DNA from: Calothrix sp. PCC 7103
Lineage (GTDB): Bacteria; Cyanobacteriota; Cyanobacteriia; Cyanobacteriales; Nostocaceae
Direction of reading: 5' to 3'
Length of the DNA: 64,000 nt
Assembly: GCF_000331305.1 (NCBI RefSeq)
Contig: NZ_KB217478.1
Coordinates: 4,204,575 to 4,268,574, forward strand
The notes under the pieces are model-generated. The model was not told the origin of the DNA and did not search any database. It worked only from the letters and a program-made list of their open reading frames with translations. Made by a program: the position numbers and the translations under genes. Below are positions 1 through 64,000 of the stretch, in pieces. Numbering within the stretch: position 1 is the stretch's first letter; each line of letters starts with the position of its first letter.

Positions 1-1
1 T

Positions 2-907
2 GAAGGTAAACTCAAAAAGATTCGTCTTGATATTGAAGCAGTTATTCCTACAGGTTTTAATGAAAACCCAGAAGTTGAAAAAGCTGTAACTAATTGGCAA
101 CACTGGCGCCAGTTTAATAATTTGCACCCAGGTGTACAAGACTTGGAAACTAAAGCAATGCGTCAGTTAGGTTCGTTGGGTGGTGGTAATCACTTTATTG
201 AGGTTTGTGTCGATACAGATAACCAAGTTTGGCTAATGTTGCACTCTGGTTCACGTAATATTGGTAATAAGCTAGCTAGCTGTCATATTAATACAGCTAA
301 AGACCTAGCAAAATTGGCTGGTAATAATTTGCCTGACCCAGATTTAGCTTACTTTATTGCTGGTACACCTGAATTTGAAGCTTACTGGCGAGATTTACAG
401 TGGGCACAAGAATATGCCAAGATGAACCGTGATGTGATGATGGCACGCTTTAAGCGAATTATCGAGAAGCATTTAGCGGGTGGTAAAGTCACAAAACCTT
501 TACTCGAAGTAAATTGTCACCATAACTACGCTGAAAAAGAAGTACATTTTGGCGAAGAAGTAATAGTAACTCGTAAAGGTGCCGTGCGCGCGCAACAAGA
601 TGATTTCGGTATTATCCCTGGTTCAATGGGAGCAAAATCTTACATTGTTAAAGGTAAAGGTTGTACTGAAAGTTTTTGCTCCTGCAGCCACGGAGCAGGT
701 CGTTTACTATCTCGAAATAAAGCTAAAAACGTTTATACACTCGATGATTTGATTAAACAAACTGAGGGTGTAGAATGTCGTAAAGACGAAGACGTTTTAG
801 ATGAAATTCCCGGCGCCTATAAACCGATAGAGACAGTCATGGCAAATCAGGCTGACCTAGTTGAAGTTGTAGCAACACTAAAACAAGTTGTCTGTGTAAA
901 AGGTTAA
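2..907 (+). CDS. rtcB: RNA-splicing ligase RtcB (5' end outside window)
   Basis: C-terminal part of RtcB, the GTP- and Mn2+-dependent ligase that joins 2',3'-cyclic-phosphate (or 3'-phosphate) RNA ends to 5'-OH ends. The reading frame is open from base 2, so the start lies upstream. Seen in order: LGSLGGGNHFIE and HSGSR (metal-binding His), VNCHHNYA (metal-binding His), RKGAVRA, IIPGSMGAKSYIVKGKG, and SCSHGAGR, which carries the His that is guanylylated in studied homologues. The visible ~300 codons are intact to the TAA stop. Family assignment is secure. The physiological substrate in cyanobacteria cannot be read from sequence. Confidence 0.96.
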   Translation, partial: EGKLKKIRLDIEAVIPTGFNENPEVEKAVTNWQHWRQFNNLHPGVQDLETKAMRQLGSLGGGNHFIEVCVDTDNQVWLMLHSGSRNIGNKLASCHINTAKDLAKLAGNNLPDPDLAYFIAGTPEFEAYWRDLQWAQEYAKMNRDVMMARFKRIIEKHLAGGKVTKPLLEVNCHHNYAEKEVHFGEEVIVTRKGAVRAQQDDFGIIPGSMGAKSYIVKGKGCTESFCSCSHGAGRLLSRNKAKNVYTLDDLIKQTEGVECRKDEDVLDEIPGAYKPIETVMANQADLVEVVATLKQVVCVKG

Positions 908-943
908 CTATAAGAAGTTTGCTTTCTTTACAATTAATAGAAT

Positions 944-988
944 TGATCCCCTCAACCCCCCTTATTAAGGCTTTCAAGGGTAGGGGGG
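944..988 (+). terminator. possible terminator-like hairpin after rtcB
   Basis: Downstream of the rtcB stop, a C6 run (956-961) can pair with a G6 run (983-988) around an AT-rich loop, followed by a T-rich stretch. It resembles a weak rho-independent terminator, but it could equally be one of the small dispersed repeats. Base 945 also begins the first of only ten GATC sites in the window. Confidence 0.3.
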
Positions 989-1092: not shown

Positions 1093-2541
1093 ATGTCTGA
1101 AAATCGAGTATCTACAAGTATTGTAGGTTTGGATGAAGTTTTAGAGGGTGGTTTCATTGCTAATCGCGCTTATCTATTGCGTGGTGGACCCGGTACAGGC
1201 AAGACGACGTTAGGGTTACATTTTCTCACGGCAGGCGCCGCTCAAGGAGAACGAACCCTGTTAATTACACTAGCAGAAGCTGGGGAACAGATATTTCAAA
1301 ATGCTCAACGGTTAGGTTTCGATACTGATGGTGTCACCTTTCTCGACCTTAGTCCAACTTCAAACTTTTTTGCCGAGGTGCAAACCTATGATATATTCTC
1401 TCCAGCAGAAGTAGAACGAGAACCGACGACGCAAAGAATTGTTGAGCAGGTACAGACTCTTAAACCTCAACGTGTTTTTCTTGATTCAATGACGCAATTA
1501 CGCTATCTTGTCAGCGATGCGTTTTTGTTTCGCAAGCAAGCATTATCGTTTCTACGTTTTTTGATAGAACAAGGTGCCACAGTATTATTTACTTCCGAAA
1601 GCAGTGAAGAGGCGCCTGACGAAGATTTACAATTTATTAGCGATGGAGTAATTAATCTCAGCTTTTCTAACCAAGAACGAACAGTATGTGTTAGCAAATT
1701 TCGCGGTTCTAACTTTCAGAGCGGGTTGCACTCAATGCGCTTGACAAAAACAGGAATGAAAGTATACAGACGCTTAATTCCAGAAAGTCACCGACAGGAG
1801 TTTATCAAGGAAACAATTCCTTCAGGAGTGGTGGAAATCGATGAATTATTGCACGGTGGGTTAGAGCGTGGAACTATTACAATTTTAACAGGCCCTAGTG
1901 GTGTGGGTAAAACTACACTAGGACTTCAGTTTATGAAAGAAGCAGCAGGGAGAGGAGAGCGTTCGGTTGTTTACACATTTGAAGAGTGGAAAGAGACGCT
2001 ATTACATCGGTGTGAAGCAATTAATATCCCTGTTCGCATTATGATGGAACGTGATATACTTTCTATTGTTCAGGTGGAACCATTACATTATACTTCTGAT
2101 GAGTTAGCAGATTTGATTCGCCATGAAGTCGAAGTTAACTGTGCAAAAATTATCATGATTGATAGCATTTCTGGCTATCGTTTGTCAGTGAGGGGTGATG
2201 ATTTAGTTAGCCATATCCATGCGTTATGTAAGTATTTACAAAATATGGGTGTTGCAGTATTGTTAATCAACGAAGTCGAAAGCATTACAGGTGAATTTAA
2301 AGTAACGGAAAATGGTATTAGCTATATAGCTGACAATATTATATTTTTACGTTATATAGAATTTAAAGGAGAAATACGACGTGCCATAGGTGTACTAAAA
2401 AAACGCTTAACTAACTTTGAGAAAACCTTGCGCGAGTTTGAAATTAGCCGCTATGGGATAAAAGTTGGCAAGCCACTTACAAGTTTACGTGGTATTCTCA
2501 AAGGTGTACCCGATATTTTAGATTCGTCCGATTTAGAATAA
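1093..2541 (+). CDS. KaiC-like tandem RecA-fold ATPase
   Basis: 482 aa with two KaiC/RecA domains. Walker A motifs are GGPGTGKTT (residues 31-39, CI) and GPSGVGKTT (about residue 267, CII). CII keeps the double acidic pair (FEEW), while CI reads LAEA, so the first of its two glutamates is lost. Aligning by eye to the KaiC phospho-loop, VTENGISYIADN gives Thr at the T426 position, Ser at S431, and Tyr where KaiC has T432. It is therefore a KaiC paralogue rather than the core clock KaiC; no kaiA or kaiB lies nearby. A histidine kinase begins 36 bp downstream on the same strand, suggesting a KaiC-like/kinase signalling pair. Starts at ATG 1093. Confidence 0.9.
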   Translation: MSENRVSTSIVGLDEVLEGGFIANRAYLLRGGPGTGKTTLGLHFLTAGAAQGERTLLITLAEAGEQIFQNAQRLGFDTDGVTFLDLSPTSNFFAEVQTYDIFSPAEVEREPTTQRIVEQVQTLKPQRVFLDSMTQLRYLVSDAFLFRKQALSFLRFLIEQGATVLFTSESSEEAPDEDLQFISDGVINLSFSNQERTVCVSKFRGSNFQSGLHSMRLTKTGMKVYRRLIPESHRQEFIKETIPSGVVEIDELLHGGLERGTITILTGPSGVGKTTLGLQFMKEAAGRGERSVVYTFEEWKETLLHRCEAINIPVRIMMERDILSIVQVEPLHYTSDELADLIRHEVEVNCAKIIMIDSISGYRLSVRGDDLVSHIHALCKYLQNMGVAVLLINEVESITGEFKVTENGISYIADNIIFLRYIEFKGEIRRAIGVLKKRLTNFEKTLREFEISRYGIKVGKPLTSLRGILKGVPDILDSSDLE

Positions 2542-2577
2542 CCGTTGTTTGTGTAGCTAGTGGTGGCAAATCAGCAC

Positions 2578-4116
2578 ATGAGTCGCATTCTACTTTTATT
2601 ACAGCATACAGAGAATCGGCGCCTGCTGTCTGAATGGTTAGAGCGTTACTACGAGGTAATAATTGGAGATGCTGCTGTACTAACACGACAAGCAGTTCCT
2701 TTACTTGATGATAAATTTGACCTTTGTATAGTAGATGGTGTTGCATTAAACCATCTATGGCAATGGGTACGGGCAAGAAAACAAGCAGAATACCCAGTAT
2801 TTCTCCCCTTTGTCCTCAGTACAATTTGTTCAGACGTAAAATTACTTACCCGTGACTTATGGCAAAGTATTGACGAATTAATTACCAAACCACTTGAAAA
2901 ACGAGAATTACACGCGCGTATAGAAATGCTGTTACGCTCGCGTCAACTATCTTTAGAGCTTAATGCTACCAATATAAAATTACAACAGGAAATAGCCGAG
3001 CGCGAACAAGCTGTATCATTACTGCGTCAAAGTGAACTTCGCTTTCAACGTATTGTTCAATCAAGCATTGTTGGTATTGTAATCGCAGATTTTGATGGTA
3101 ACATTTACGAAGCAAACGACACATTTTTACAAATAGTTGGTTACACACGACAAGACTTAGAAGCTGGCAAAGTTAGGTGGATTGAGATGACACCAAGCGA
3201 GTATTTACCACTTGATGAACGCGCAATTGAGCAAATCAAAGCAACAGGTGATTATACTGTATATGAAAAAGAATATATTCGTAAAGATGGCAGTCGCGTT
3301 CCGGTATTAGTCGGTCCAATACAAATAGAACCTGAACAGCCAAATGTCCTTGCTTTTATACTTGATATTACAGAGCGTAAAATTGCCGAAGTCGAAACTC
3401 AAAAAGCTTTAGAACAAGAAAAAGAACTTAACCAACTAAAATCACGCTTTGTCTCAATGGTTAGCCATGAGTTTCGTAATCCCCTAAATATTATACAGGG
3501 TTACGCTGCTTTACTCGAAAAAAAAGGCGCCGGATGGTCACAAGAAAAACAAGCAGAAGTATTACAAAAGATAAGAAAATCCGTTAATAATGTAGTTGGT
3601 TTATTGGATGATGTATTAGTAATTAGTAAAGGACAAGTTAGCAGTCAAGCATTCAACCCAACTATAATAAATCTGAAGCAATTTTGTCAAAACCTAGTTA
3701 CCGAAATGCAATTGGTCGCTAACCCCAAACACCAAATTTTCTTACTGGCGCCAGAACACGAAATTCAAGTTAACTTAGATGAAAAAGCGTTACAACAAAT
3801 TCTAACTAACTTGCTATCAAACGCCATAAAATACTCACCAAAAGGAGGAGATATATTATTTGAACTCGCTTACTATGATAAAGCAATAACATTTAAAATT
3901 GAAGACAAAGGCATTGGCATTTCTACAGAAGACCAGCAAAAGTTATTTCAGTCATTCTATAGAGCCAAAAATGTTGGCAATATTCCCGGTACCGGATTAG
4001 GATTAGCAATTGTCAAGCAAGCAGTAGAATTACACCAAGGTGAAATAAACGTAACAAGTCATCTTGGTTCTGGTACAACATTTACAATCACAATTTCTAT
4101 TGATTCACAAATATAG
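2578..4116 (+). CDS. hybrid receiver-PAS-histidine kinase
   Basis: About 512 aa from ATG 2578; tandem GTG codons at 2560 and 2563 are in-frame alternatives. Order: a receiver-like domain with candidate phospho-acceptor D53 (CIVDG) and K104 (TKP), but without the usual N-terminal acidic pair (QHTENR instead), so its phosphorylation is doubtful. Then a coiled coil, a PAS domain (roughly 155-275), and HisKA with H297 in SMVSHEFRNPL. Last is HATPase_c with N box LLSNAIKYSP, DKGIGIS, and GTGLGLAI. No membrane segment is seen, so it is probably cytoplasmic. Probably co-transcribed with the KaiC-like ATPase, whose output it may transmit (inference). Confidence 0.92.
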   Translation: MSRILLLLQHTENRRLLSEWLERYYEVIIGDAAVLTRQAVPLLDDKFDLCIVDGVALNHLWQWVRARKQAEYPVFLPFVLSTICSDVKLLTRDLWQSIDELITKPLEKRELHARIEMLLRSRQLSLELNATNIKLQQEIAEREQAVSLLRQSELRFQRIVQSSIVGIVIADFDGNIYEANDTFLQIVGYTRQDLEAGKVRWIEMTPSEYLPLDERAIEQIKATGDYTVYEKEYIRKDGSRVPVLVGPIQIEPEQPNVLAFILDITERKIAEVETQKALEQEKELNQLKSRFVSMVSHEFRNPLNIIQGYAALLEKKGAGWSQEKQAEVLQKIRKSVNNVVGLLDDVLVISKGQVSSQAFNPTIINLKQFCQNLVTEMQLVANPKHQIFLLAPEHEIQVNLDEKALQQILTNLLSNAIKYSPKGGDILFELAYYDKAITFKIEDKGIGISTEDQQKLFQSFYRAKNVGNIPGTGLGLAIVKQAVELHQGEINVTSHLGSGTTFTITISIDSQI

Positions 4117-4129
4117 ATATACGAGAGTG

Positions 4130-4151
4130 GAATGGGCATCCTTGCCCGTTC
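4130..4151. repeat. small GGGCATCC-type hairpin repeat
   Basis: Inverted repeat with the core GGGCATCCTTGCCC between the kinase and the convergent macro-domain gene. Related hairpins with the same GGCA-TCC-TGCC core recur at 12007-12034 and 44285-44311, with looser variants at 8924-8955 and 25598-25619, so it is a dispersed element rather than a gene-specific site. It may also act as a bidirectional terminator here. Confidence 0.6.
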
Positions 4152-4199
4152 TAAACAATGGATGGTTACACTGCCAGATATAATTCATATTAAAGCTAA

Positions 4200-4787
4200 T
4201 CATCCCTCCCAAATTTGTAATTGTCTTGATGCTGCAACAAAGCAGTTAATAACCTTTGGTGGGTAAACAAAATGGTCATAAGCAACAGACATTTGTCTAG
4301 CTGCTTCACAATAAGGTACTCGTCCAATACCTGTTCCTAACCCAGGACAAGCTACGCTATTAATTAGATGCTTAGAATTTTTATTATGTTGTCGAATTGC
4401 TAATAGCATTGCCCACATTGCTATATATGGTACATCAGTACCTTGTATAATCATTGGCACCCGCATTGTAGGAGTATGTGCCAAAAAAGAATGCTTAGGA
4501 TGTCCCGTTTCAATAATAAATGATGTACCAACTGGCTGTTCCCCTAAATAATCTTCAAGTATTCGCTCTTGTACTCTCTTTTCTAAAGAAATACCAAAGA
4601 ATTTGATAATAGCTGCATCCATACCACCATCCATCATGCCAAACGAGTTAGCAGGACTTACTAAGCAATCAAATTCTGTTAGCTGCTCAAAGTAACTATT
4701 AACTATTTCAACATTAGGGAAGTAAGCAAAGTATTCTTGAAATGCAGTATATAACGAGTAGTCAGGCGCCACGAGTATTAGTTTCAT
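4200..4787 (-). CDS. macro-domain-like protein
   Basis: 195 aa. The N-terminal half carries a macro-domain signature: CLVSPANSFGMMDGGMDAAI, then GTSFIIETGHP, and later CPGLGTGIGRVPYCEAARQM, which match the ligand-loop positions of macro domains that bind or hydrolyse ADP-ribose derivatives. No signal peptide or extra domain is seen. It stands alone, convergent with the kinase gene. Binding to an ADP-ribose-like ligand is expected from the family; the actual substrate is unknown. Confidence 0.8.
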   Translation of the reverse strand: MKLILVAPDYSLYTAFQEYFAYFPNVEIVNSYFEQLTEFDCLVSPANSFGMMDGGMDAAIIKFFGISLEKRVQERILEDYLGEQPVGTSFIIETGHPKHSFLAHTPTMRVPMIIQGTDVPYIAMWAMLLAIRQHNKNSKHLINSVACPGLGTGIGRVPYCEAARQMSVAYDHFVYPPKVINCFVAASRQLQIWEG

Positions 4788-4954
4788 ATCTATGATTGTA
4801 GCTTAACATCAGCGCATGTGTCTGCATAAAAGAGGGGCGGGTTTACTATATCGTAGTTAAGAGTGAAGATTTTTGGTTAACCCGCCCTTACAATACCTGC
4901 TCTGTGTATTCAATATAATATCAGTAATTACCGTATTAGGGATTGCTGATTTTA

Positions 4955-5081
4955 GGGATGATTTGTCATTCTGAGCGGAACGAAGTGTAGCGTAATGCGT
5001 AGCATTTGCCGCAGGCTAGAATCCTTATAGATGCTTCACTTCGCTGCGCTACGTTCAGCATGACAAATCTAATTTCATCCC
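4955..5081. repeat. MITE-like inverted repeat element
   Basis: Non-coding element of about 127 bp with long inverted ends: 4961-4974 (atttgtcattctga) pairs with 5055-5068 (tcagcatgacaaat, 13 of 14), flanked by gggatga and tcatccc. The interior also pairs (gaacgaagtg with cacttcgctg). It lies in the 620-bp gap between the macro-domain gene and the PEP-CTERM gene. A second hairpin, ggcgggtt/aacccgcc, lies at about 4837-4890. No coding capacity was found in this gap. Confidence 0.65.
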
Positions 5082-5408
5082 GCATTTATGCAACGCCCCG
5101 TATTAATTAATTATGGCTCTTGATAATTGGCGCCAAGAAGGCTTCTTGTTCTTACCTCCGAATTATTGAGAGGATGACTAGAAAATATATTCTAAAATCA
5201 TAATTATCTGTGTTTTTTCAGTATATCTACGGTACTGTTTCAATTTTTTGTTTCATTAAACCTCATATATCAAGAACTTTTTGCTAATTTCTCTCTAACT
5301 AGATACAAATATGTTTTTTAGTTAAAAATATTACTATAGCTATACTCAGATAGCCTTTTCATATGCCAGATTATTTATAGCAAACATACATAAGAAGCAT
5401 ACAAATCA

Positions 5409-6131
5409 ATGTTGACTTTAAAAACACTATCATTAGCTTTAGTCGGAACAGCAGTTATTTTTATGGGTGCTAACCCAGCTAACGCGGTTAGCCTAACAAA
5501 AGGAGGTTCTACACCTATTGCTGGAGAGGGTCAATACACTAATATTCAAGGAGCTAAAACTATCAACTTTAATGATGGGATAGCACCTTCTTCTGGTAAT
5601 GTCACTTACTCTGCAACTAATGGAATTGTCCAAGGAAGTGTAGGTGGTCAATACGCTAGTCCATTTGGTAATAACAGTAAATATTTAACAATTTCCCCAA
5701 CGGGTGACAAAGTGAATGGTCAAGATTTTGCAGGAAGCTCTGGTGATGTAACTATTCGCTTTGCTTCTGCTCTTGATTACTTCGGCTTCTACTGGGGGTC
5801 GGTAGACACATATAATTTTGTAGATGTCTATAGCGGAGGAAGTCTTCTCAAAACATTCAGTGGTACAGATGTTCCGGACGCCCCTGCGAATGGTGAGCAG
5901 AGTGGCAACGCAAATAATGTTTACGTTAATTTATTAGCAGATAAAGGGCAGACTTTCGATAAAGTTGTAATGAGATCAACTGGTCGTGCGTTTGAAACTG
6001 ATAACCATAGCTATAGAGTTGCTTCTGTCCCTGAACCTACTTCTGTTTTAGGCTTAGTTGCTTTCGGCGCTTTGGGTGCAGGGTCATTCATCAAGCGCAA
6101 ATCAAAAAAAGTACAATCTTTGGGATTGTAG
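5409..6131 (+). CDS. PEP-CTERM sorted extracellular protein
   Basis: 240 aa. A signal peptide (hydrophobic core LALVGTAVIFMGA, likely cleavage after NANA-type residues near position 26) is followed by a beta-rich middle. The C-terminus is a PEP-CTERM sorting signal: VPEPTS, a hydrophobic helix and a basic tail (KRKSKK). PEP-CTERM proteins are exported and processed by an exosortase/archaeosortase-type system linked to exopolysaccharide. The middle part, with Asp/Asn-rich loops and DYFGFYWGSVDTYN, resembles cyanobacterial Npun/PEP-CTERM surface proteins of unknown function. An inverted repeat, aaaggggttgc (6164) with gcaaccctttttt (6237), may terminate it. Confidence 0.88.
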   Translation: MLTLKTLSLALVGTAVIFMGANPANAVSLTKGGSTPIAGEGQYTNIQGAKTINFNDGIAPSSGNVTYSATNGIVQGSVGGQYASPFGNNSKYLTISPTGDKVNGQDFAGSSGDVTIRFASALDYFGFYWGSVDTYNFVDVYSGGSLLKTFSGTDVPDAPANGEQSGNANNVYVNLLADKGQTFDKVVMRSTGRAFETDNHSYRVASVPEPTSVLGLVAFGALGAGSFIKRKSKKVQSLGL

Positions 6132-6436
6132 ATGCTCTCTTAATTTATTTAGTTTGAGTTTTTAAAGGGGTTGCTAAATTAGCCTATTCTGAACGAATTA
6201 TAACTAGTTTTAGCCGCAGATTCATACTGCATCTACGCAACCCTTTTTTCAAATCTCGCCATTTATTTAAATACCAAATTTATATCTTAATAAATTATAA
6301 TATACTCTCCTTTGTATTTTATCATAATCTTTTTTTAATAATAAAGTTTGATTATTATATTTTTATTTACTATTAAGATGAATATTGAGGAATGGCGCCA
6401 ATTTCTTAAACGTTACAGCATTGAATTGCTACAATT

Positions 6437-6628
6437 TTAAAACTTAAATTTCATTTGGGAACCAATGGTTCCCATTATATTTTCTACAAATCTAAACTTG
6501 CGTTTGTTATATAGAACCTCCTCAACTTCATCGGGTACAACTTGATGTTTAACAGCAAGTTTTTCTACAACTGCATCTAACCAAATGATTTCTTCAACTC
6601 TCACACCACTAATTCTAGACTGACACAC
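6437..6628 (-). pseudogene. truncated BrnT/DUF4258-like toxin remnant
   Basis: 63 codons. IIWLDAVVEKLAVKHQV followed by EVEEVLYNKRKFRFVE matches the first half of BrnT-like (DUF4258) cyanobacterial proteins, which normally continue with a GEDVY/GQT...GRYL half that is absent here. The frame instead runs into a perfect palindromic arm pair, gggaacc/ggttccc (6455-6471), and stops. I read it as a 3'-truncated relic, not a working toxin. No antitoxin partner is visible. Confidence 0.55.
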
Positions 6629-6850
6629 GTAATATGATTTTAGCTCACTTACTGTGAATACTTTTGTGGCACAACGCGCGCACGATAAAAATTTGTTGCA
6701 CGCTCTTAAGTATATATTATAACCTAGTAAAACAGTAAGTAATAATTTGATTCTTATTATTCAGAGCCACTCAAAGATTTATGCACGCAAAGTTCTTTTA
6801 AGAGGTAAAATTGAACACTACGACACTCAAAAGCGATTACCAAAATTGAT

Positions 6851-7405
6851 ATGTCAAAACCATTTAAATTTGTCCCGAAGTTAAGATGGAAGTTGTCAAT
6901 CCTATGGATGCTTGGTACTGGTTTTACATTGATGTGTGTGCCTTTGACAAGTGGTTATGCATTCATAGCACTCCCTTTTGTACAATGGCTACTGCTAAAA
7001 AGTTATGTAGGTGAGCCTGGACTATGGATTTTAGCAACGCTTTTCGGTGGAATTGCAGGATTCGCTAGTTTAATTTTCGCTTTATTTTTTCTTCCTTCAA
7101 GATATTTAGCAGCAGCAGTTGCAGGGGCTGTATTAGGTTTCGCGCAATCACTAGTACTTAGGCGCCTTTGTTATAAGGCTAACTGGTGGATTCTCTCAAG
7201 TTCCCTAGCTTTGACTATTGGAGCAGGATGGGTTATAGATATTGATTTTCCAACATATTTTAAATTTGGTGGCTCCAAACCAAGTCAACAGGTGTTAATA
7301 ATTATGTACTTAGTAAGTGGGCTTATTGGTGGCGCCATTAAAGGTGGAACACTTGGTTGGCTGATTGAAAATCACAAGAAGGCGCCAAGGAAGCCGACTC
7401 TGTAA
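6851..7405 (+). CDS. multi-pass membrane protein of unknown function
   Basis: 184 aa with about four to five hydrophobic segments (roughly residues 16-36, 38-48, 55-77, 84-98, 112-130 and 148-165). The LGFAQSLVLRRLCYKANWWI stretch is like that of cyanobacterial hypothetical membrane proteins with a QxLVLRR...WW signature. No catalytic motif is recognised. The methyltransferase gene begins 44 bp downstream on the same strand, so the two may be co-transcribed. Function unknown. Confidence 0.7.
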   Translation: MSKPFKFVPKLRWKLSILWMLGTGFTLMCVPLTSGYAFIALPFVQWLLLKSYVGEPGLWILATLFGGIAGFASLIFALFFLPSRYLAAAVAGAVLGFAQSLVLRRLCYKANWWILSSSLALTIGAGWVIDIDFPTYFKFGGSKPSQQVLIIMYLVSGLIGGAIKGGTLGWLIENHKKAPRKPTL

Positions 7406-7448
7406 CTGCAACCTACCATAGGTAGTAGTAGCATTACCAAATTTAGCA

Positions 7449-8285
7449 ATGTTAGAAGCAAAACGTATAGAAGAATATAAACAGCAATTACTCGCTGACT
7501 TTAATTCTCGTAACAATTACGACGGTGGCAGATTTTACTTACCAATAGCCAAGCGTTTAATTGAAGTGGCTAACCTCAACTCTGTACAAAAAATACTAGA
7601 TGTAGCTACAGGTACAGGAATAGTAGCATTAGCAGCAGCAGAAAAAGCAGGTGCCCAATGTAAAGTAATTGGTATAGATATTTCTACAGCGATGCTAAAT
7701 AACGCTATACAAAAACTAGCTACCTCTGGTTTACAAAATGTAAAATTTATCGAAGCTGATGCCGAATTAATAGACTTTGAGCAAAACAGTTTTGATGTAA
7801 TATTATGTTCTCTAGCAATTTGTTATTTAACTGATATCCCTACGGCTTTACATAAATGGCATAGTTTTCTCAAACCAGGTGGAAAACTTGTATTTAACGC
7901 TTGGACAGAAAACGCATTTACAACAAGTGTTTTATTTCGAGAAGTCGCAGCTAAATACGGTATTACTGTAACGAACCCAAATGCACCACTAGGTACACCA
8001 CAAAAATGCCAGCAATTATTGTCAGCAGCAGGTTTTGAGAATAAAAATATTATAATCCAAGAGGAGCAGTTTGGCTGGTATTTTACCCCTGATTTAGACA
8101 TAGCACAACAAATATGGGAAGTTAACGCTAAAAACGTCTTTGGCTACCAAGTACAACAACTGGCGCCCGAAAAACTGCAAGAATGTTTTGCAGAATATAT
8201 AAAAGAAGTTCAAGCATTACCTGTGACTGAACAAGGCGCCTGGTGTGATGCATCAATATTTTTTGTAACAGCAGTAAAAATATAA
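7449..8285 (+). CDS. class I SAM-dependent methyltransferase
   Basis: 278 aa with a UbiE/MenG-like Rossmann methyltransferase fold. Motif I is ILDVATGTGIVALAAAEKAG, motif II is VIGIDISTAML, then the post-I acidic EADAELIDF and motif IV-like DVILCSLAICYL. The C-terminal third (about 170-278) is less conserved and probably contacts the substrate. Substrate unknown; no cofactor-biosynthesis genes are nearby. ATG at 7449. Confidence 0.85.
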   Translation: MLEAKRIEEYKQQLLADFNSRNNYDGGRFYLPIAKRLIEVANLNSVQKILDVATGTGIVALAAAEKAGAQCKVIGIDISTAMLNNAIQKLATSGLQNVKFIEADAELIDFEQNSFDVILCSLAICYLTDIPTALHKWHSFLKPGGKLVFNAWTENAFTTSVLFREVAAKYGITVTNPNAPLGTPQKCQQLLSAAGFENKNIIIQEEQFGWYFTPDLDIAQQIWEVNAKNVFGYQVQQLAPEKLQECFAEYIKEVQALPVTEQGAWCDASIFFVTAVKI

Positions 8286-8294
8286 TAATCAAAT

Positions 8295-8315
8295 GTAGAG
8301 ACGTTACATGTAACG
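8295..8315. repeat. GTAGAGACGTTACATGTAACG dispersed palindrome
   Basis: Palindromic repeat (cgttac-atgtaacg core) just after the methyltransferase stop. The same sequence recurs at 13838-13862, and relatives occur at 37220-37247 and 59876-59899. This is a family of short mobile-like palindromes, mostly immediately downstream of genes. Confidence 0.7.
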
Positions 8316-8424
8316 TTTTTACTAAAATAGGTGTTTGGCAGGATATCACTACTTTTTTTGCGATTAGTCGTAAAGCTTAGTTGTTAATATAAGATTAGAG
8401 TAATTATACCTATGTTATAGCTTT

Positions 8425-8919
8425 ATGAGACCGCAACGCATTGAACCTCAACCTGGGCAAGAGTCAGTATGGGACTATCCCCGTCCACCACGTTTAGAAG
8501 ATGTCAGCAAACACATTCAGATTATTTTTAATGGTGAAACAATCGCTGATACTCACAATGCAAAACGAGTTTTAGAAACTAGCCATCCGCCAGTTTACTA
8601 TATTCCACCTGCCGATATTAAGATGGAATATCTCATAAAAATGCCCCAATCTAGTTTTTGCGAATGGAAAGGAGCAGCAGGATATTACACACTGCGCGTA
8701 GGTGATAAAGAATTGCAAAACGTTGCTTGGTTCTATCCTAACCCCACACCTGAATTTGAATCTATGAAAGATTATGTGGCGTTTTATGCACATCCAATGG
8801 ATGCATGTTATATAGATGGCGAAAAAGTGGCGCCGCAACCAGGTAATTTTTATGGTGGTTGGATAACTAAAGATATTGTTGGGCCATTTAAAGGAATTCC
8901 TGGTAGTTGGGGATGGTAA
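8425..8919 (+). CDS. DUF427 domain protein
   Basis: 164 aa. A DUF427 fold covers most of the protein: IQIIFNGETIADTHNAKRVLE, HPPVYYIPPADIKMEYL, CEWKGAAGYYTL, NVAWFYPNP and DYVAFYAHPMDACYIDGE are family-typical blocks. It is a small cytoplasmic beta-barrel protein without an established biochemical function. Length is normal for cyanobacterial members. It stands alone. Confidence 0.85.
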   Translation: MRPQRIEPQPGQESVWDYPRPPRLEDVSKHIQIIFNGETIADTHNAKRVLETSHPPVYYIPPADIKMEYLIKMPQSSFCEWKGAAGYYTLRVGDKELQNVAWFYPNPTPEFESMKDYVAFYAHPMDACYIDGEKVAPQPGNFYGGWITKDIVGPFKGIPGSWGW

Positions 8920-8923
8920 TACT

Positions 8924-17731: not shown

Positions 17732-19030
17732 GTGGAAGTACTTCTGCGCTTGGATGCCAAGATACGTAATTACATGCTGATTTTATTCGCAGCGGGTTTA
17801 CTATTTTGGTCGAGTATTGGAGCGTTGCTATCAACGCTTCCGCTTTATATTGAGGATTTAGGGGGTTCTAAACAGGAAGTTGGCATTGTCATGGGTAGCT
17901 TTGCTGTTGGGTTGTTAATATTTCGTCCTCAACTGGGAGAGTTAGCAGACCGACGTAACCGTAAAATTGTTTTGATTATTGGCGCCTTAGTTGCAGCTAT
18001 TGCACCATTGGGTTATCAAGTATTTACATCAATACCTGGACTTATTGCACTACGAGCGTTTCATGGGATTAGTATTGCAGCTTTTACTACAGCATACGCA
18101 GCACTAGTTTCCGATATAGCTCCGGCAGAAAATCGCGGTGAAGTTTTGGGCTATATGACTTTGACTGGGGCAACTGGTTTAGCACTTGGGCCAGCAATTG
18201 GTACCTATATTCAAGAAAATGCTAGTTACACATTATTATTTAATACTACTGCTATTTTAGGTTTACTCTCGCTTTTATTTGTACTGCCAATCGAAAGCTT
18301 TCCAGTATCGCAAGATGTGAGTGAAGATAATCGCGACGAAACTATTTGGCAAATTTACAAAAGTCCAAGGGTGCGGGTTCCAGCGCTAACTATGTTGCTA
18401 ATTGGGTTAGCGGTGGGTACGTTAAATACTTTTATTCCATTATTTATTAAATCTATACATGTTGATTTTGATTGCGGTTTGTTTTATACAATTGCAGCGG
18501 TATCAAGTTTAGTATCGCGGTTTTTTACTAGTGGTGGTAGTGACCGAATTGGTAGGGGTATATTTGTAACTCTTGGTTTAATTGCTTATACGCTCTCGAT
18601 GTTACTCCTATGGCAAGCAAACAACGATTTGTCATTTTTTTTGTCAGCAATACTTGAAGGCGCCGGGGGTGGCACATTTCTTTCGACAATGGATGTAGTT
18701 ATAGCCGACCGTTCACTTCCTACTGAACGCGGACGAATATTTGCTCTATGTGTAGTGGGGTTTGACTTAGGTATTGCAATTGCTGGCCCACTTGGAGGTT
18801 CGATTGCCGAACAAGTCGGTTATCATAATATGTTTGGTATTGCAGGCGCCTTAACTTTCTTAGCCATTATAATTTTCCTAACGTTATCAAACAAAAATCT
18901 AATTAACTCATTACGCTTTGCCTTTGGACGTAGTGATGATGACTTTGCTTATAGTACATTTGTAGTTCTGGCGCCGGATTTTGACAATAGCGAAAATTAT
19001 ACCGCACTATCTGGTATTACAGCAGAGTAG
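17732..19030 (+). CDS. MFS transporter
   Basis: 432 aa from GTG 17732, with AGGA about 9 nt upstream. Twelve hydrophobic segments are visible. The loop 2-3 signature GELADRRNRKIV (the G-x-x-x-D-R-x-x-R/K motif) and its half-repeat SDRIGRGIF in the second half identify a major facilitator. ALGPAIGTYI in helix 5 resembles the motif C of drug/H+ antiporters, so export is likely. Substrate unknown. The last 45 residues are cytoplasmic. Convergent with the restriction-endonuclease gene. Confidence 0.9.
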   Translation: MEVLLRLDAKIRNYMLILFAAGLLFWSSIGALLSTLPLYIEDLGGSKQEVGIVMGSFAVGLLIFRPQLGELADRRNRKIVLIIGALVAAIAPLGYQVFTSIPGLIALRAFHGISIAAFTTAYAALVSDIAPAENRGEVLGYMTLTGATGLALGPAIGTYIQENASYTLLFNTTAILGLLSLLFVLPIESFPVSQDVSEDNRDETIWQIYKSPRVRVPALTMLLIGLAVGTLNTFIPLFIKSIHVDFDCGLFYTIAAVSSLVSRFFTSGGSDRIGRGIFVTLGLIAYTLSMLLLWQANNDLSFFLSAILEGAGGGTFLSTMDVVIADRSLPTERGRIFALCVVGFDLGIAIAGPLGGSIAEQVGYHNMFGIAGALTFLAIIIFLTLSNKNLINSLRFAFGRSDDDFAYSTFVVLAPDFDNSENYTALSGITAE

Positions 19031-19124: not shown

Positions 19125-20051
19125 CTAAAGCTGCTGTCTAATAATTTCAGCAAGTAACCCACTAGAAGCCATATTCAAATTTAATGTATAGTCAATATAA
19201 TTAAAAGTTTCTTCCAAAGGTTTTAAAGTACTCTTCCAACCTAAACCATCAGTAATCCAAATAAATTTGTGATTTTGCGCCGTTAAAAAATCATACAAAC
19301 CCTTATATTCACCTGCGGTGGCTTTCAACTTAGAACCACCTCCACCATAGAAATTGACTTCAATTAAATAAATTAATTCTTGATTATTAATTGCAAAATC
19401 AAATCTTCTGCTTGATTTATCTACTTCAACAATAATATCCCATTCAGCCAAAATCTTCTCAGCAGTAGCTTGTTTAATATATGTAAAATTACTCGCGTTA
19501 CAAATAGACTTTACTAACTCTTCAACGATAATTTCCATCGTATCTCCAGCACGATTTTTTCTACCGTTACTATCTAGTCCCACCTCAATTCCTAATACAT
19601 AATCTGGAATACTCTTAATAGTACGGTTCTCAAATAGTTCCAGCACCCCAGTTTCTCTGACAAACTCTACTGCTGCATCAATATTTTCTGGAAATAAAAG
19701 ACTTTGATCACTAAAATTAAACCCTTGATATTGAAAATTTTTTTCTGTAAAGCTAGTTAGAATTCTAAAACTTTTTGTTCGACAAGCTATTAAAATTGGA
19801 ATTGCGCTGTAAATACCTGGATAAGTTTGTAATAGTTCTCTAAACTCTTGCTCTATATTATTTTTTCCAATTAAATAATTTAGAGTATTCAAATGAATTT
19901 CAACGCTTTTAAAATTGGATAGGACTTTTTGCCAATTAACAAAATAGTCCCATATTGTTATAGAGTCAGTCAAAGTATTTTTCAAATGCTTAAATACATC
20001 TTTGGTAGCAGCACTTCCCAAAAAATCATGAAATACCTGACTATTTTTCAT
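19125..20051 (-). CDS. DpnII-family type II restriction endonuclease (GATC)
   Basis: 308 aa. Several blocks align by eye with R.DpnII/MboI-type enzymes that cut GATC: GIEVGLDSNGRKNRAGDTME, then RRFDFAIN, YLIEVNFYGGGGSKL and FIWITDGLGW, in the same order and at the same spacing. The gene starts 51 bp downstream of the Dam-type methylase gene on the same strand, the normal partner arrangement. The frame is intact, so an active enzyme is plausible. It contains one of the window's ten GATC sites (19706). Specificity is inferred from the family and supported by the near-absence of GATC here. Confidence 0.88.
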   Translation of the reverse strand: MKNSQVFHDFLGSAATKDVFKHLKNTLTDSITIWDYFVNWQKVLSNFKSVEIHLNTLNYLIGKNNIEQEFRELLQTYPGIYSAIPILIACRTKSFRILTSFTEKNFQYQGFNFSDQSLLFPENIDAAVEFVRETGVLELFENRTIKSIPDYVLGIEVGLDSNGRKNRAGDTMEIIVEELVKSICNASNFTYIKQATAEKILAEWDIIVEVDKSSRRFDFAINNQELIYLIEVNFYGGGGSKLKATAGEYKGLYDFLTAQNHKFIWITDGLGWKSTLKPLEETFNYIDYTLNLNMASSGLLAEIIRQQL

Positions 20052-21386: not shown

Positions 21387-21749
21387 TTAACTAACTTTAA
21401 TCTCCGAACCCGATAACTCAATCGAAGAAGCAAGTCTATCCATAACAACACGACCAATAACCGCCACATCAGACAATGGCATCACCTTAATTTGCTTAAC
21501 AATCTGATTCAAATCTGAAGAATTAGATTGTGGCTTAATCCCCAAATAATTTAAAAGCTCCTCAATTGTGTAACCCGCTCTATCAGCAATATTTGCCAGG
21601 TTAAGAACATCCGGAATTGACTCGCCTTTCTCCCACAGCTGCACCGTTGTATAAGACACACCAAGTAATTTTGCAAACGCTCTTTGGCTCATGGAATCAC
21701 GAGCCGTTTTAACAACTTCACCTAATTTCTTCCGCGCTTCTAAATCCAC
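21387..21749 (-). CDS. XRE-family regulator, paralogue 1
   Basis: 120 aa. N-terminal lambda-repressor-type HTH (MSQRAFAKLLGVSYTTVQLWEKGESIPD, residues about 19-46) is followed by a conserved tail, YTIEELLNYLGIKP, and IVKQIKVMPLSDVA. It is closely similar to the gene at 23863-24225 and more distantly to that at 21867-22226. It lies upstream of the GATC methylase on the same strand, a possible controller of the restriction system (inference). Confidence 0.85.
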   Translation of the reverse strand: MDLEARKKLGEVVKTARDSMSQRAFAKLLGVSYTTVQLWEKGESIPDVLNLANIADRAGYTIEELLNYLGIKPQSNSSDLNQIVKQIKVMPLSDVAVIGRVVMDRLASSIELSGSEIKVS

Positions 21750-21866
21750 TTCTGTAATATTCTTCTAACCTACAGACCAGAATATTTTAGCCTGGAAAAC
21801 CTAAACATTAAACTTGTATGTGAATAATTCCAGTGATTGTAGAGTATACAGCGATTATTTATACCG

Positions 21867-22226: not shown

Positions 22227-22256
22227 TGGCGTTTTAACTACTCCACTGTCGTTATA

Positions 22257-22351
22257 ACTTTAGTTGTCATATTACAACTTTACTTTCATATTGACAGACT
22301 TGCATACTAGCGGTAAATTAAATCTAAAGTTTGAATTATTCCAACTAAAGT
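22257..22351. promoter_or_regulatory. candidate XRE operator pair
   Basis: actttagttg at 22257-22266 and its exact inverse caactaaagt at 22342-22351, with a partial third copy (caacttta) at about 22275, sit in the divergent spacer between the XRE gene (start 22226) and the gene starting at 22409. The symmetry and placement fit binding sites of a dimeric HTH regulator. No binding data exist; this is an inference from position and symmetry. Confidence 0.4.
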
Positions 22352-22408
22352 AAACATAACTTGTTCTTTAGACGTACTTACCAATACGCAGTCAGAGGTG
22401 CATCCAAA

Positions 22409-56961: not shown

Positions 56962-58671
56962 TTAAACTTCGGCAAAGAATTTAAATAACCAGTCTTTGAC
57001 ACAACGTGTAGCATGGCAATCATCTTCGTTATAACGCTGAATGATTGAAAGCATCGCATGATTTCCTGTTTTTAACCATTGATCATACCAGTAAATACAC
57101 TTAGCACCACTAGCATCACTATCACGCCATTCAAATTTTAACCACTTAGCAATAACTTTGAGTGCGTAGCTTTCTATGGGTAGAGCCACATTTTTAATAA
57201 GTTCTTCATACACATCAACAAAACGACTGAGTATTGGTAACACAACATCGTTGGGAGTGTGATATAGTTTTGCGAGTCGTTTGACAGTATCAAACTCATA
57301 CACGCAAAAATGGTAAATAGGCGCCTCTGGGTGATGGTTTACTAAGTCCACAAACTGCTGCCATACTAACTCTTCGTCTTCAGGTTTCTCTGCCAAAAAC
57401 GAATAAAACCGCTCAGTCTGTGCTATTTTATCAACAACCAAAACTCCCAGTAAGTAATTAAGATTCAAATCTGGTTGTGCTTCTATATCAAAGTAAAGTT
57501 CTACAGGATACTCTAGACGAATATCTTTAACGGCTATTTGACTTTGACGCAACGAAGAAATACTTGTATATGTATATGCTTGGGTTAAACCGATATTTTC
57601 TTCCACTTTGGGTGTTGACGGTTGAAGTCGCAAAGCGCGATTTTCGGTAATCGATTTAGCTTGTACTACCAACTTCGGGGCAATATAACTATCAAATCCA
57701 GGTAAATTTTCGAGCATCAGGGGATTAGTATTAGCCAGAGCTTCGGGAGTATTAATATTGAGAGCTTGAAGTTGAGCATAACGAACTGGAGTAACTCCAG
57801 GCATTAGTGAAAGATGACGTGAAGCACGCGCAACATTATAACAATCAGTATGCCAATGACAAAGAGTGCATTTTTGTCGTGAGATAAATATATCGGGTGC
57901 GATTTCCGCTTCGAGTGACTCTATGCATTGCGACAAAATTCGCTGCATTTGCACAGACCATCTTTTTAAATCAACGTGATAACTAGTTTCTTTGGAGCGT
58001 AGTATCAAGCCAGCAGTTGTAGGTTCGACGAGTTGCGTTATTCTAAGTATTTCGGCATGATAAGCAGCAATAACTTGATACTCTTGTTTAGGACGCTTAC
58101 CAAGTTCAATAGTGGTTGGGATGTACTGAAAATCGCCAAACCGTGATTTTCCTGGTTGTTTAATTAATAAATCAGGACAACTTACTAGTGTATACTCACG
58201 ACTTGGAACATAAGGAGAAAATAATGGCGACACCGTGTAATTAGTAAAAGAATCTTCAAGCGAGAAAGGAAGCGTAGAAACATTATCATCACTTCCGTTG
58301 TCTTCAGCAACGGCGCCGACAGCAGCTAACTCAGTACTCAAAATACTCTGTTGTAAACTATTTGAGACTTGGGTACGCCATTCAATATCAGCATAATCTG
58401 CCAATAAAACCCCTTGGTAGATACAATCAACACCTTGCTGCATCAATTCCAAAGTTTCCACCGCACCCGCACTCCAATCACGCGGTCGATAGTTCGGTCG
58501 AGTGACGGGCGTGCGTCGTAAAATACTTTTTTGGTGGTTAATTTTATCTTGTTGAAGTTTAAGCAGTAAATCGGTCGGTTCAGAGCGCAACGTATAGTCA
58601 CCGTAGATGTCTAAAAACGGTCGGCGCCTACAGCGTTGGAATTGCAGCAGAAGTTCAGCGTTAATTAACAT
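56962..58671 (-). CDS. TM0106-family RecB-like nuclease
   Basis: 569 aa. N-terminal part: RCRRRPFLDIYGD, then RecB-like motifs with LVSCPDLLIKQ and IELGKRPKQEYQVIAAYHAE, and the Cys cluster KCTLCHWHTDC (iron-sulfur type of the AddB/Cas4 kind). The C-terminal RNase H-like domain reads ELYFDIEAQPDLNLNYLLGV and FCVYEFDTVKRLAKLYHTP, ending YNEDDCHATRCVKDWL. This matches the TM0106 family of predicted DNA nucleases. Divergent from the PLP enzyme. Function in repair likely but unproven. Confidence 0.86.
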   Translation of the reverse strand: MLINAELLLQFQRCRRRPFLDIYGDYTLRSEPTDLLLKLQQDKINHQKSILRRTPVTRPNYRPRDWSAGAVETLELMQQGVDCIYQGVLLADYADIEWRTQVSNSLQQSILSTELAAVGAVAEDNGSDDNVSTLPFSLEDSFTNYTVSPLFSPYVPSREYTLVSCPDLLIKQPGKSRFGDFQYIPTTIELGKRPKQEYQVIAAYHAEILRITQLVEPTTAGLILRSKETSYHVDLKRWSVQMQRILSQCIESLEAEIAPDIFISRQKCTLCHWHTDCYNVARASRHLSLMPGVTPVRYAQLQALNINTPEALANTNPLMLENLPGFDSYIAPKLVVQAKSITENRALRLQPSTPKVEENIGLTQAYTYTSISSLRQSQIAVKDIRLEYPVELYFDIEAQPDLNLNYLLGVLVVDKIAQTERFYSFLAEKPEDEELVWQQFVDLVNHHPEAPIYHFCVYEFDTVKRLAKLYHTPNDVVLPILSRFVDVYEELIKNVALPIESYALKVIAKWLKFEWRDSDASGAKCIYWYDQWLKTGNHAMLSIIQRYNEDDCHATRCVKDWLFKFFAEV

Positions 58672-61033: not shown

Positions 61034-61102
61034 AAAAGCGCGACATTTTTAATATGTCGCGTCATCCATCGCGTATAAACTTATCCTAGAAACCCGGTTT
61101 CT

Positions 61103-63397
61103 TTAAGAGAGTGATTTTTTGTAAACAGCGTTATTGCCACCAACAATAAACACATCAAGTTTATTGCTGCCTTGTGAAGTTGCAGCAGGCGCCGAGATAG
61201 CTGTACCACCGATATTTTCCCAGGAACTCCAAGTTACGCCATCTGAGTATTTACGGTAGACTGCATTATCTGTACCAACTGCGAATATATCTAAACGGTT
61301 GGCGCCCCATGAAGTGACACTTGGAGCATATAACCATAAACCACCTAAAGATACCCAATCACTCCATACTTGACCATTCCAGTATTTATGGTAAATAGCA
61401 TGGTCGCCACTGCGTACAAATAAATCAATTCGATTTTCACCCCAAGATACTGCTGTAGGCGCCGATAGTGCAAGTCCACCCAAACTAGTCCAGTTACTCC
61501 AAGCGCTACCATCCCAAGTCATTTGGTAAACAGCGTTATCTGCACCTACAGTAAATACATCTTGACGTGTACCCCAACCTGAAACAGCGACACCTTGCTT
61601 ACAGAAACCACCTAAATTTTCCCATTCGCAGGCGCCCCAACTTGTATCACTACAAGATAAACGCTGTATTTGGCGTTCTTTACCAATAGTAAATGTATCG
61701 ATGCGGTTAGGTGCTGGTGAAATTGCAGCAGGCGCCGATAAGCTAAACCCACTTAGACTTTCCCACTCACTCCAAGTCGTACCATCCCAAGTCTTTTCGT
61801 AGACGGCACTGTCACCACCAATCGCAAAAATATTAAGACGTTGTTCACCTAAAGATACAGCACCAGGAGCAGAGAAGGCATTTCCACCCAAGCTTTCCCA
61901 GTCGCTCCAACGAGGTAATTGGGGATTTAATTTGTCAAAAGCAACTTTGGGTTGAAGAATACCTGCACCAGTATTTTGGTCGAAACCAGGTTCACCAATA
62001 TTCTTTGCAGTCTGCTTAAAGAGGTCTTTCATTTCCTCTTGGGTGATTCCTGGTTTTGCTTGTGTGAATAATGCTGCCACGCCAGCAGCAATTGGACAAG
62101 CCGCTGAAGTACCGTTATCGCTGCCAAAATAACCTCGGAAATGTGTAACTGAACAGAAATCTGGTTTGTTGGGGTCGAGTGTTGCTGGCCCTTGGCTACT
62201 GTAACCTACAAATTGTTCGTCTTTGTTAACAGCGCCAACTGTCATTACTAAAGGATGTCCATTGGCGCCCCAAATACTCTTACCAGAACCAATATCACCA
62301 CCGCAACGGTCAGCTGGACAAGTGCCACCACAGTTCCCTGCTGCAAACAGCATAATAATGCCTTCGTTGATTGCTTCTACAACCTTACGAGTGAACGGAT
62401 GGTCTGCATTGGTCGCGTAAAATTCATCCCAGCTTTTCTGATATATACCCCAGCTATTGGAAAGAATATGTGGTGTACCATCAATACGATGTTGGTTAAT
62501 TGCCCATTGAAATACAGACAGTGCGTTAGATATAGAATCACCACCAGCAATGCGACAGTCATATAACTTTGCTTCAGGCGCCATACCGAGAATATCTGTG
62601 GCACACATGTTACCGTGTTCACCCCAAGAACGTGCTTTCGTTCCCCAATCTTGTGCAGGGCCACCAATTACATTTGGAATGCGACGAATACCTTCAAATG
62701 GATCAACAGGGCGCCCTTCAGCAGTAATACCACCATCAACAACACCAACTACAATACCTTGACCTCTAAATCCAGCAGCCCAAATTTGGTCAACACCAAA
62801 ATATTTTGCGACATCTGCAATTGTCCCTTTTGCTGTAGTGGGTGAACAATCGCAAGTGCCAACAGGACAATTACCTTTACCATCCATCGGTTTGACTAAA
62901 TCGTAGGTAGTCTTTTCCAAAACCGATTGATTGAATGGAGCAATAGGTGTATCTTTATAGACTTTAACAACACTTGGTTGAGCTTCGAGTTCAGCAATTC
63001 CACGTTCTTCAACTTCACCGCGAATGATATAAGTCTCTTCGTTAGCAGCCATAATACTTGCAACAATGTTGCTAGATGGAGCAACTGGAACTGGCTCATA
63101 TGCGGTATCGAGTCGAAAACTGTCAATACTGGCGCCAACATTTTCTGATGCACCAACAATACCTTGTGTTCTAGAGACTCGTAACTCTACAAGAACCTTT
63201 TGCATCGCACTATAAGAGTCCGCATTCATCTGCGCGCTACTCATCACCCCAGTTCCACGCAACTCACCCATACCCAAAGACGGCATGTTACTAGAGTTGG
63301 ATGATGGAGGCACCTGTTTAGACTTACCATTACCGTTACCATTGCCATTACCATTGACGCTTCCATTGCCCGGAGCGTTAAATTCATTATTTTGCAT
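61103..63397 (-). CDS. subtilisin-family (S8) protease fused to PLL-like lectin propeller
   Basis: 764 aa. The N-terminus is Asn/Gly-rich with no signal peptide seen. S8 catalytic triad: D221 (VVGVVDGGI), H261 (WGEHGNM) and S431 (NGTSAACPIAAGVAALF), with NSWG oxyanion region between. Residues about 495-764 are six repeats of about 45 aa of the type WSxWESLGG...SAPAAxSWGxxRLDIFAVGTDNAVYxKxWDG, matching the PLL/fucose-binding lectin propeller family. It probably targets the protease to glycans. Substrate and export route unknown. Confidence 0.88.
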   Translation of the reverse strand: MQNNEFNAPGNGSVNGNGNGNGNGKSKQVPPSSNSSNMPSLGMGELRGTGVMSSAQMNADSYSAMQKVLVELRVSRTQGIVGASENVGASIDSFRLDTAYEPVPVAPSSNIVASIMAANEETYIIRGEVEERGIAELEAQPSVVKVYKDTPIAPFNQSVLEKTTYDLVKPMDGKGNCPVGTCDCSPTTAKGTIADVAKYFGVDQIWAAGFRGQGIVVGVVDGGITAEGRPVDPFEGIRRIPNVIGGPAQDWGTKARSWGEHGNMCATDILGMAPEAKLYDCRIAGGDSISNALSVFQWAINQHRIDGTPHILSNSWGIYQKSWDEFYATNADHPFTRKVVEAINEGIIMLFAAGNCGGTCPADRCGGDIGSGKSIWGANGHPLVMTVGAVNKDEQFVGYSSQGPATLDPNKPDFCSVTHFRGYFGSDNGTSAACPIAAGVAALFTQAKPGITQEEMKDLFKQTAKNIGEPGFDQNTGAGILQPKVAFDKLNPQLPRWSDWESLGGNAFSAPGAVSLGEQRLNIFAIGGDSAVYEKTWDGTTWSEWESLSGFSLSAPAAISPAPNRIDTFTIGKERQIQRLSCSDTSWGACEWENLGGFCKQGVAVSGWGTRQDVFTVGADNAVYQMTWDGSAWSNWTSLGGLALSAPTAVSWGENRIDLFVRSGDHAIYHKYWNGQVWSDWVSLGGLWLYAPSVTSWGANRLDIFAVGTDNAVYRKYSDGVTWSSWENIGGTAISAPAATSQGSNKLDVFIVGGNNAVYKKSLS

Positions 63398-64000
63398 ATT
63401 CTCAATCCTTTTATAAATTAATTTTGTTTCAGTGCGACCACCGCGCTCCTATTGCTTAAACCTTACTTTTTGGAGGGTAATGTAAGTACTGACGACTTTA
63501 AATAAAGGGCAAAAGATAAGGTCAAGAAAAATTTTACGCGAGATAGCCAAAAAAATACAGGTAAGGAAATTTACTAATTTTTTTACCTTTAATTTCCTGA
63601 GCTTTACCCACCAAATTTTTCTCACTAACTTAACTTTTGCCCATATTCAGATAGGCTTTTCGACTTGTCAGGGAGGAATTCTAGCCTCGGTTTTCACCGA
63701 ACTGCTATGGTTGATATTATGAGCAGTAATAAGACTAAAGTGAATACGTGTTTACACTGAAATTCTTACTTAACCACCGTTGAAGTTCAGTGTAAATCAC
63801 GGTATCATTTATAAATTAAGGCGCTATGCATCGCCAATTACTTATTTTGCCTGTCTTCGAGGGGCTTCACCCCTACTTGCTTATACCCCTACTGCACTTG
63901 ACCCCTACATTATGGCACCCCTCATACGTAATGGCAAGTTTTACGTATAAATTGTCATAAACCTCGTTGTAAGCACTTCAGTGCTTTCCATTCAAAGATT
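63398..64000. promoter_or_regulatory. right-end region with hairpin and 16-bp phased motif array
   Basis: No gene supported in 603 bp. An 11-bp perfect hairpin, tttacactgaa (63751-63761) with ttcagtgtaaa (63786-63796). Then acccctac at 63869, 63885 and 63901, and acccctca at 63917, exactly 16 bp apart. Farther right are acgtaatggcaagttttacgta and an agcacttcagtgctt hairpin (from about 63974). The array could be operators, transposon-end binding sites or an origin-like iteron set. The context continues beyond the window. Confidence 0.5.

Follow-up and report, generated by a model that had tools for sequence, protein, structure and literature searches.

The tetranucleotide GATC has been almost eliminated from the genome of the filamentous cyanobacterium Calothrix sp. 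PCC 7103, including the 64,000-nucleotide stretch analyzed here (contig NZ_KB217478.1, positions 4,204,575 to 4,268,574; hereafter the window), which also encodes a predicted DpnII-type restriction endonuclease and an adenine methylase at 19.1–21.1 kb. The depletion is true, strong, genome-wide and selected for. Restriction-site avoidance imposed by the local DpnII-type system is its best, though not its exclusive, explanation, and we give this reading a probability of about 0.72. Neither the depletion nor the proposed cause is new: Elhai 2015 (PMC4390886) put GATC in this strain at 16% of expectation, which made it the extreme among 97 genomes, and proposed a putative active GATC endonuclease as the cause. 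The present result is an independent rediscovery, to which genus-wide sampling, recoding, the turnover of residual sites and additional carriers and non-carriers of the enzyme are added. Among the openly available papers searched, none besides this one was found to deal with GATC avoidance in this group.

Depletion of GATC and the DpnII-type pair

Within the window GATC occurs 10 times where an order-2 Markov model expects 131, a ratio of 0.076 that is the lowest among all 256 tetramers and corresponds to a value of −10.6 for (obs−exp)/sqrt(exp). The sites begin at exactly the positions that an earlier note on this DNA had picked out by eye (945, 5974, 19706, 20267, 29723, 39036, 39631, 41233, 57081 and 62701), and its remark that none lies in a CGATCG context agrees with the lack of any CGATCG within the 64 kb. 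The approximately 230 sites it had expected are reproduced from base composition (229), the first-order and second-order Markov models giving lower figures (141 and 131), and its GC content of about 41% is corrected to 39.8%. The effect had also been described as specific to GATC. Indeed, the sister tetramers are abundant (GATA 280, GATT 295, GATG 202), but GATC is not quite unique, with GGCC the runner-up for depletion (13 versus 79 expected, 0.16). GGCC is under expectation in every sampled relative as well (0.00–0.67), and its depletion is therefore not special to this genus.

The depletion extends across the 11.58-Mb genome. The highly iterated palindrome HIP1 (GCGATCGC), an octamer with GATC at its core, is commonly frequent in cyanobacteria; with HIP1 masked, GATC reaches 117 of 943 expected (0.12) in 19 spread 20-kb stretches of the main contig (380 kb; the twentieth, L058, is all N and was left out everywhere). 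In 544 kb of the genome, window included, the count is 162 of 1334 (0.121), so that the genome-wide Markov count suggested in the earlier note falls far below expectation rather than near it. Measured by base composition, the spread sample has a ratio of 0.092, not the 0.16 reported in Elhai 2015 (PMC4390886), and 684 kb in which HIP1 stretches are over-sampled have 0.158, so that the agreement is not a neat one; islands of HIP1-bearing DNA may account for the gap between 0.092 and 0.16.

Avoidance targets the GATC word itself. Among 117185 codons in mechanically called open reading frames (ORFs) of this genome, GAT makes up 75%, 78% and 68% of aspartate codons when the next base is A, G or T, respectively, but 76 of 634 (12%) when it is C. 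Isoleucine is written ATC in 20 of 901 cases (2%) after G and in 13–23% otherwise, while serine is written TCN in 11 of 114 cases (10%) after xGA and in 61% otherwise. The recoding affects all three reading frames and uses different substitutions in them; changing GAT to GAC is opposite in direction to cytosine deamination.

Loss is also evident at orthologous places in the S10 ribosomal operon, where the window keeps none of 20 GATC sites of the relative G095, two of 28 of G003 and none of the single site of G022. Seven control palindromes of the same operon are kept in 88 of 237 cases (G095) and 69 of 236 (G003), with p values of 0.0003 and 0.012 versus GATC. The words replacing the relatives' GATC are diverse, GACC being the commonest. 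None of the relatives' HIP1 places in this operon (six in G095, five in G003, none in G022) is intact in the window; four of the octamers that stand in their stead occur in the lists of both G095 and G003, suggesting an ancestor with HIP1 at these places that was later lost.

Most of the ten residual sites appear to be young and under removal, since they are poorly conserved in close relatives. Two of eight aligned residual sites are conserved in PCC 7716 (94.5% identity), where the 15 remaining palindromic tetramers reach 64–89% (Fisher p 0.0006). In NIES-4105 (87.7% identity) the figure is two of six, with GGCC at 1 of 7 and the other palindromes at 50–70%. The site at 945–948 is AATC in PCC 7716 and that at 57081–57084 is GGTC in the same strain, the other relatives not being aligned at either; 39036–39039 is AATC in PCC 7716 and partly gapped in NIES-4105, and 29723–29726 is GGTC in all five aligned genus relatives. 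At 5974–5977 and 62701–62704 the relatives do not align. Two sites lie within the restriction genes, at 19706–19709 (endonuclease) and 20267–20270 (methylase), and are absent from all six genus relatives. The last two, at 39631–39634 in ORF 39050–39832, which from its position we take to be rpsC, and at 41233–41236 in ORF 40622–41485 beside the L4 gene, are kept in both aligned genus relatives and do not appear young.

The DpnII-type GATC restriction system that had been proposed at 19.1–21.1 kb is borne out as an intact PF04556 endonuclease and Dam/DpnM-type methylase, with ratios of nonsynonymous to synonymous divergence (dN/dS) of 0.06–0.15. On the minus strand, the predicted endonuclease gene occupies 19125–20051 (308 amino acids; PF04556 7.5e-95, 317.8 bits against a cut-off of 23; PADLOC REase_II 2e-97), and 51 bases upstream of it lies the predicted adenine methylase gene at 20103–21146 (347 amino acids; PF02086 2.6e-56; TIGR00571 275.8 bits), whose product has about 40 residues preceding the methylase domain. 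The nearest solved structure to the methylase is DpnM (PDB 2dpm; 5.2e-49 over residues 44–347), while none of the solved structures matched the endonuclease by sequence. Named relatives of the endonuclease at 88–96% identity belong to Calothrix and Dulcicalothrix.

Judged from sequence comparison, the predicted pair is intact, under purifying selection and at one place in seven genus genomes, the six others being, by match coordinates, Calothrix HK-06, FI2-JRJ7, PCC 7716, NIES-4105, C42_A2020_038 and Dulcicalothrix desertica PCC 7102. Across six genus comparisons dN/dS is 0.08–0.15 for the endonuclease and 0.06–0.12 for the methylase, with synonymous divergence (dS) of up to 0.92. Neither gene contains an internal stop in any of the seven genomes, and the same major facilitator superfamily gene lies near the pair in all six other loci (one matched by a fragment only). 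The pair thus has the appearance of a maintained, long-resident system in the genus.

The comparison set comprised 118 genomes of the family, of which 13 contain PF04556, five in this genus and eight elsewhere. Ratios across relatives were computed with HIP1 masked, from samples of 11–160 kb each outside the own genome of PCC 7103. All seven genus genomes, each with DpnII, are depleted in GATC (0.06–0.23; four are represented by only the 21 kb surrounding the enzyme), and eight of 11 DpnII-free genomes lie at 0.38–0.60; the latter were chosen by hand, three of them (G022, G083 and G104) with low HIP1 in mind. All 15 carriers, the genus included, differ from the 11 DpnII-free genomes with a Mann-Whitney p of 0.022, the genomes in this and the later tests not being independent of one another. 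The same direction holds within the genera g20 (carriers 0.23 and 0.25 versus 0.38) and g39 (0.41 versus 0.52). Also in line with avoidance, four HIP1-bearing, GATC-rich islands of the PCC 7103 genome (L078, L079, L081 and L082, contig C7) are less depleted, with GATC at 0.49 of expectation.

HIP1, GGCGCC and a missing cytosine methylase

HIP1 is scarce in this genus. PCC 7103 contains 163 copies in 11.58 Mb, or 14.1 per Mb, and does not rank as HIP1-rich, and the five genus genomes of the set hold 31–163 copies. Of the 113 other genomes, 110 hold 1117–8803, the low ones being G022 (535), G083 (990) and G082 (30, in a genome 88% complete). The figures for PCC 7103 agree with the 14 HIP1 and 159 CAGGCGCC per Mb reported for it in Elhai 2015 (PMC4390886), the latter word occurring at 140–160 per Mb in our samples of the genome. 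No hexamer of the window is as over-represented as GGCGCC (95 versus 4.0 expected, 24-fold), which the same paper calls an alternative HIP in PCC 7103; it reaches 1195–1768 copies per Mb in samples from the genus, 912 per Mb in the islands with HIP1 and 0–50 per Mb in other genomes.

A cytosine methylase, chosen by its cross-genome occurrence and not from a named sequence, has matches with E below 1e-90 in all but 12 of the 118 genomes, or 106. Absence was defined as a best E above 1e-60 and applies to 12 of the 118, among them all five sampled genus genomes (best 8.5e-28 to 3.1e-46; in G000, G076 and G115 only 14 of 19–27 candidates were scored). In G000, a family search (18 of 18 scored) and the comparison of 13 of 15 matches gave none above 34% identity. 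The remaining genomes above the cut-off are G020, G069, G093 and G096, whose best match spans 130–164 residues at 56–61% in a long frame and which probably contain divergent copies, and G032, G085 and G097. The missing enzyme is probably the CGATCG methylase, because the CGATCG methylase is almost coextensive with HIP1 and is damaged in PCC 7103, as reported in Elhai 2015 (PMC4390886). However, G032, G085 and G097 lack the cytosine methylase and keep HIP1, and the low-HIP1 genomes G022, G083, G104 and G082 do have it; loss of the methylase is therefore not the whole answer.

In G022, ten of the 15 GATC in 160 kb lie inside intact, dispersed HIP1 (L162, L163 and L194–L199), all of them within stop-free frames of 221–1408 codons, and HIP1 octamers broken at the core occur at 3.5–3.8 times expectation, versus 1.34 and 0.85 in the genome of PCC 7103. 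This suggests that the purge in G022 would be more recent and that HIP1 would have a special status there. On the account given in Elhai 2015 (PMC4390886), HIP1 is without a settled function, and G022, where most sampled leftover GATC is HIP1, is a good place to seek it.

Weighing the explanations

A number of observations weigh against the local DpnII-type system as the cause of the depletion. The eight carriers outside the genus are only mildly low in GATC (0.23–0.49) and all keep HIP1 (1973–6966 copies); compared with the 11 DpnII-free genomes they give a Mann-Whitney p of 0.11, which becomes 0.001 in a post hoc test minus the three low DpnII-free genomes. Those three reach 0.012 (G022, 5 of 405), 0.06 (G083, 29 of 485) and 0.27 (G104) without DpnII, and recoding in G022 and G083 is as in this genus, aspartate being written GAT before C in 4 of 203 and 18 of 152 cases. 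Within g45 the direction fails, with a carrier at 0.33 versus 0.27 and 0.06. The residual sites at 39631 and 41233, in ribosomal operon ORFs, are kept in PCC 7716 and NIES-4105 for no known reason. In addition, GATC cleavage and GATC methylation by the pair are predicted activities. According to Elhai 2015 (PMC4390886), how much GATC a genome contains bears no evident relationship, in general, to whether it encodes a GATC endonuclease.

No MutH/Sau3AI enzyme was detected in the 12 genomes searched, G022 and G083 included, with a positive E. coli control; a search for DpnI found none in the 118 genomes, but control genomes also gave nothing, so absence is not implied. Given the mild depletion of the eight outside carriers and the purge in DpnII-free G022 and G083, DpnII is therefore not enough to bring about a strong purge and, judging by the PF04556 and MutH/Sau3AI families, is not required for one. 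The tie between avoidance and the local system drawn in the earlier note holds in part: the intact pair under purifying selection in the genus and the recoding in three frames favor the tie, whereas as a simple cause the system fails on the eight mild carriers and on G022 and G083, which are equally or more depleted without a recognizable PF04556 or MutH/Sau3AI cutter.

In all 15 DpnII carriers a single strong match to a GATC-type methylase adjoins the endonuclease (58–100% identity), and nine chosen non-carriers have one match apiece at 45–48% identity, an orphan methylase that lies next to rbfA in eight of the nine. The DpnII system appears to take the place of this orphan both in the genus and beyond it. 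That an additional GATC methylase protects the other carriers was considered and is unsupported, as all lesser matches scored much lower (E 6e-14 or worse) and were regarded as methylases of other specificity; since there is one strong match per carrier everywhere, methylase redundancy does not explain the difference among carriers. The length of residence could be relevant. Orthodox type II restriction–modification (R-M) systems show site avoidance in about 50% of 1774 cases, and avoidance rises with longer residence and lasts after loss of the system (Rusinov 2015, PMC4687349), a paper whose main text never contains "cyanobacteri". A younger residence of DpnII in the other genera may, very tentatively, be proposed. 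Five long loci of other genera (one ending just past the endonuclease) share no neighbors beyond the pair, save one weak ATP-binding cassette match, three further loci being too short to judge, and in two within-genus pairs elsewhere the endonuclease dS is 0.13 and 0.24, no less than in some pairs of this genus.

Another GATC-directed agent, outside PF04556 and MutH/Sau3AI, could instead drive the depletion in the genus, G022 and G083, leaving the DpnII pair incidental. The strong depletion of G022 and G083 without either family and the mild depletion of DpnII carriers elsewhere fit such an agent, as does a G022 locus (L199:13298–14669) in which an adenine methylase lies beside a predicted type II endonuclease of no assigned specificity; in the genome of PCC 7103 a broken gene at L040 looks similar by eye. 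However, no candidate shared by these lineages was found. The only match that passed in G083 was of the orphan type, and the adenine methylase of the G022 locus did not appear there. Seven cytosine-methylase loci (in G022, G083, G104 and G119, of 38 matches) read by eye, which is not a full search, gave no pointer to a neighboring GATC enzyme; of two neighbors scanned, one is NgoPII-type and the other without family. Lost systems are known to leave traces, which offers an alternative (Rusinov 2015, PMC4687349), and DpnII is present in all seven genus genomes under purifying selection; a separate agent is distinctly unlikely. Doubtful, too, is the broader notion that GATC purging arose independently in at least three Nostocales lineages (the genus, G022 and G083), two of them via an agent outside the known GATC-cutting families, with HIP1 actively kept in G022.

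Lost or changed methylation-linked repair, comparable to the methylation-dependent mismatch-repair model for HIP1 in Elhai 2015 (PMC4390886), could also have biased mutation away from GATC. All five genus genomes have lost nearly all HIP1 and lack the near-universal cytosine methylase, and GGCGCC is strongly over-represented in the genus, as the same paper reported for PCC 7103. Such a bias is nevertheless quite improbable given the diverse replacements, the commonest of which (GACC) needs a T to C change, the different substitutions by which the three reading frames are hit, and the depletion of G022 and G083, which hold the cytosine methylase. As to composition or chance, non-HIP1 GATC is below expectation in relatives too (0.38–0.60 in the eight DpnII-free genomes); 10 sites versus 131 under the order-2 model, and 162 versus 1334 in 544 kb, far under those eight relatives, reduce its probability practically to nil.

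For restriction-site avoidance, we propose a model whereby an orthodox DpnII-type system would have settled near the ribosomal protein operon in the genus ancestor, displacing the orphan methylase of GATC type that relatives have. The endonuclease is predicted to cut unmethylated GATC and the adenine methylase to protect it, and each GATC would represent a small self-cleavage risk when methylation lagged. Mutations breaking GATC, mostly synonymous, would have been favored until about one tenth of the expected sites remained, and ancestral HIP1, with GATC at its core, would have been purged too. Loss of the near-universal cytosine methylase, probably the CGATCG enzyme, may have taken away the factor that preserves HIP1 in other carriers. 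An old resident here, possibly younger residents elsewhere, and lost or unrecognized systems in G022 and G083 would reconcile the pattern. The added carriers and non-carriers sharpen the question of the cause: a single DpnII lineage has shed almost all its GATC and HIP1, eight other carriers retain HIP1, and some relatives that lack the enzyme were purged of GATC as well.

GATC-rich islands and neighbors of the pair

Stretches of the PCC 7103 genome picked for HIP1 content have higher GATC ratios (0.22–0.58). The four islands were selected because HIP1 is present, and large ORFs are found in the three inspected. Stretches with fewer HIP1 (L063, L080 and L083) lie at 0.22–0.37; L080, L083 and L087 (0.24, 0.22 and 0.29 with HIP1 masked) belong to neither class in the comparison of the 544 kb with the islands. 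HIP1 places are clustered in this genome among the matches listed (the first 100). The islands are possibly acquired DNA of different ages, and GATC-rich stretches within a GATC-poor genome may flag recently acquired DNA.

In Streptococcus pneumoniae the single-strand methylase is DpnA. The arrangement in the window is like that of the DpnII system of S. pneumoniae in that the PF04556 endonuclease adjoins a DpnM-type methylase. It is unlike that system, which has a second methylase acting on single strands (Rusinov 2015, PMC4687349), in that no second methylase was found among the flanking ORFs scanned here (17732–19030 and 21387–22867). Two genes for HTH_3 proteins lie upstream of the methylase gene on the minus strand. 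The product of the more distant one (21867–22226) has no match to the R-M control-protein model, whereas that of the nearer one (21387–21749) matches it weakly (2.6e-4) and is a candidate regulator of the pair.

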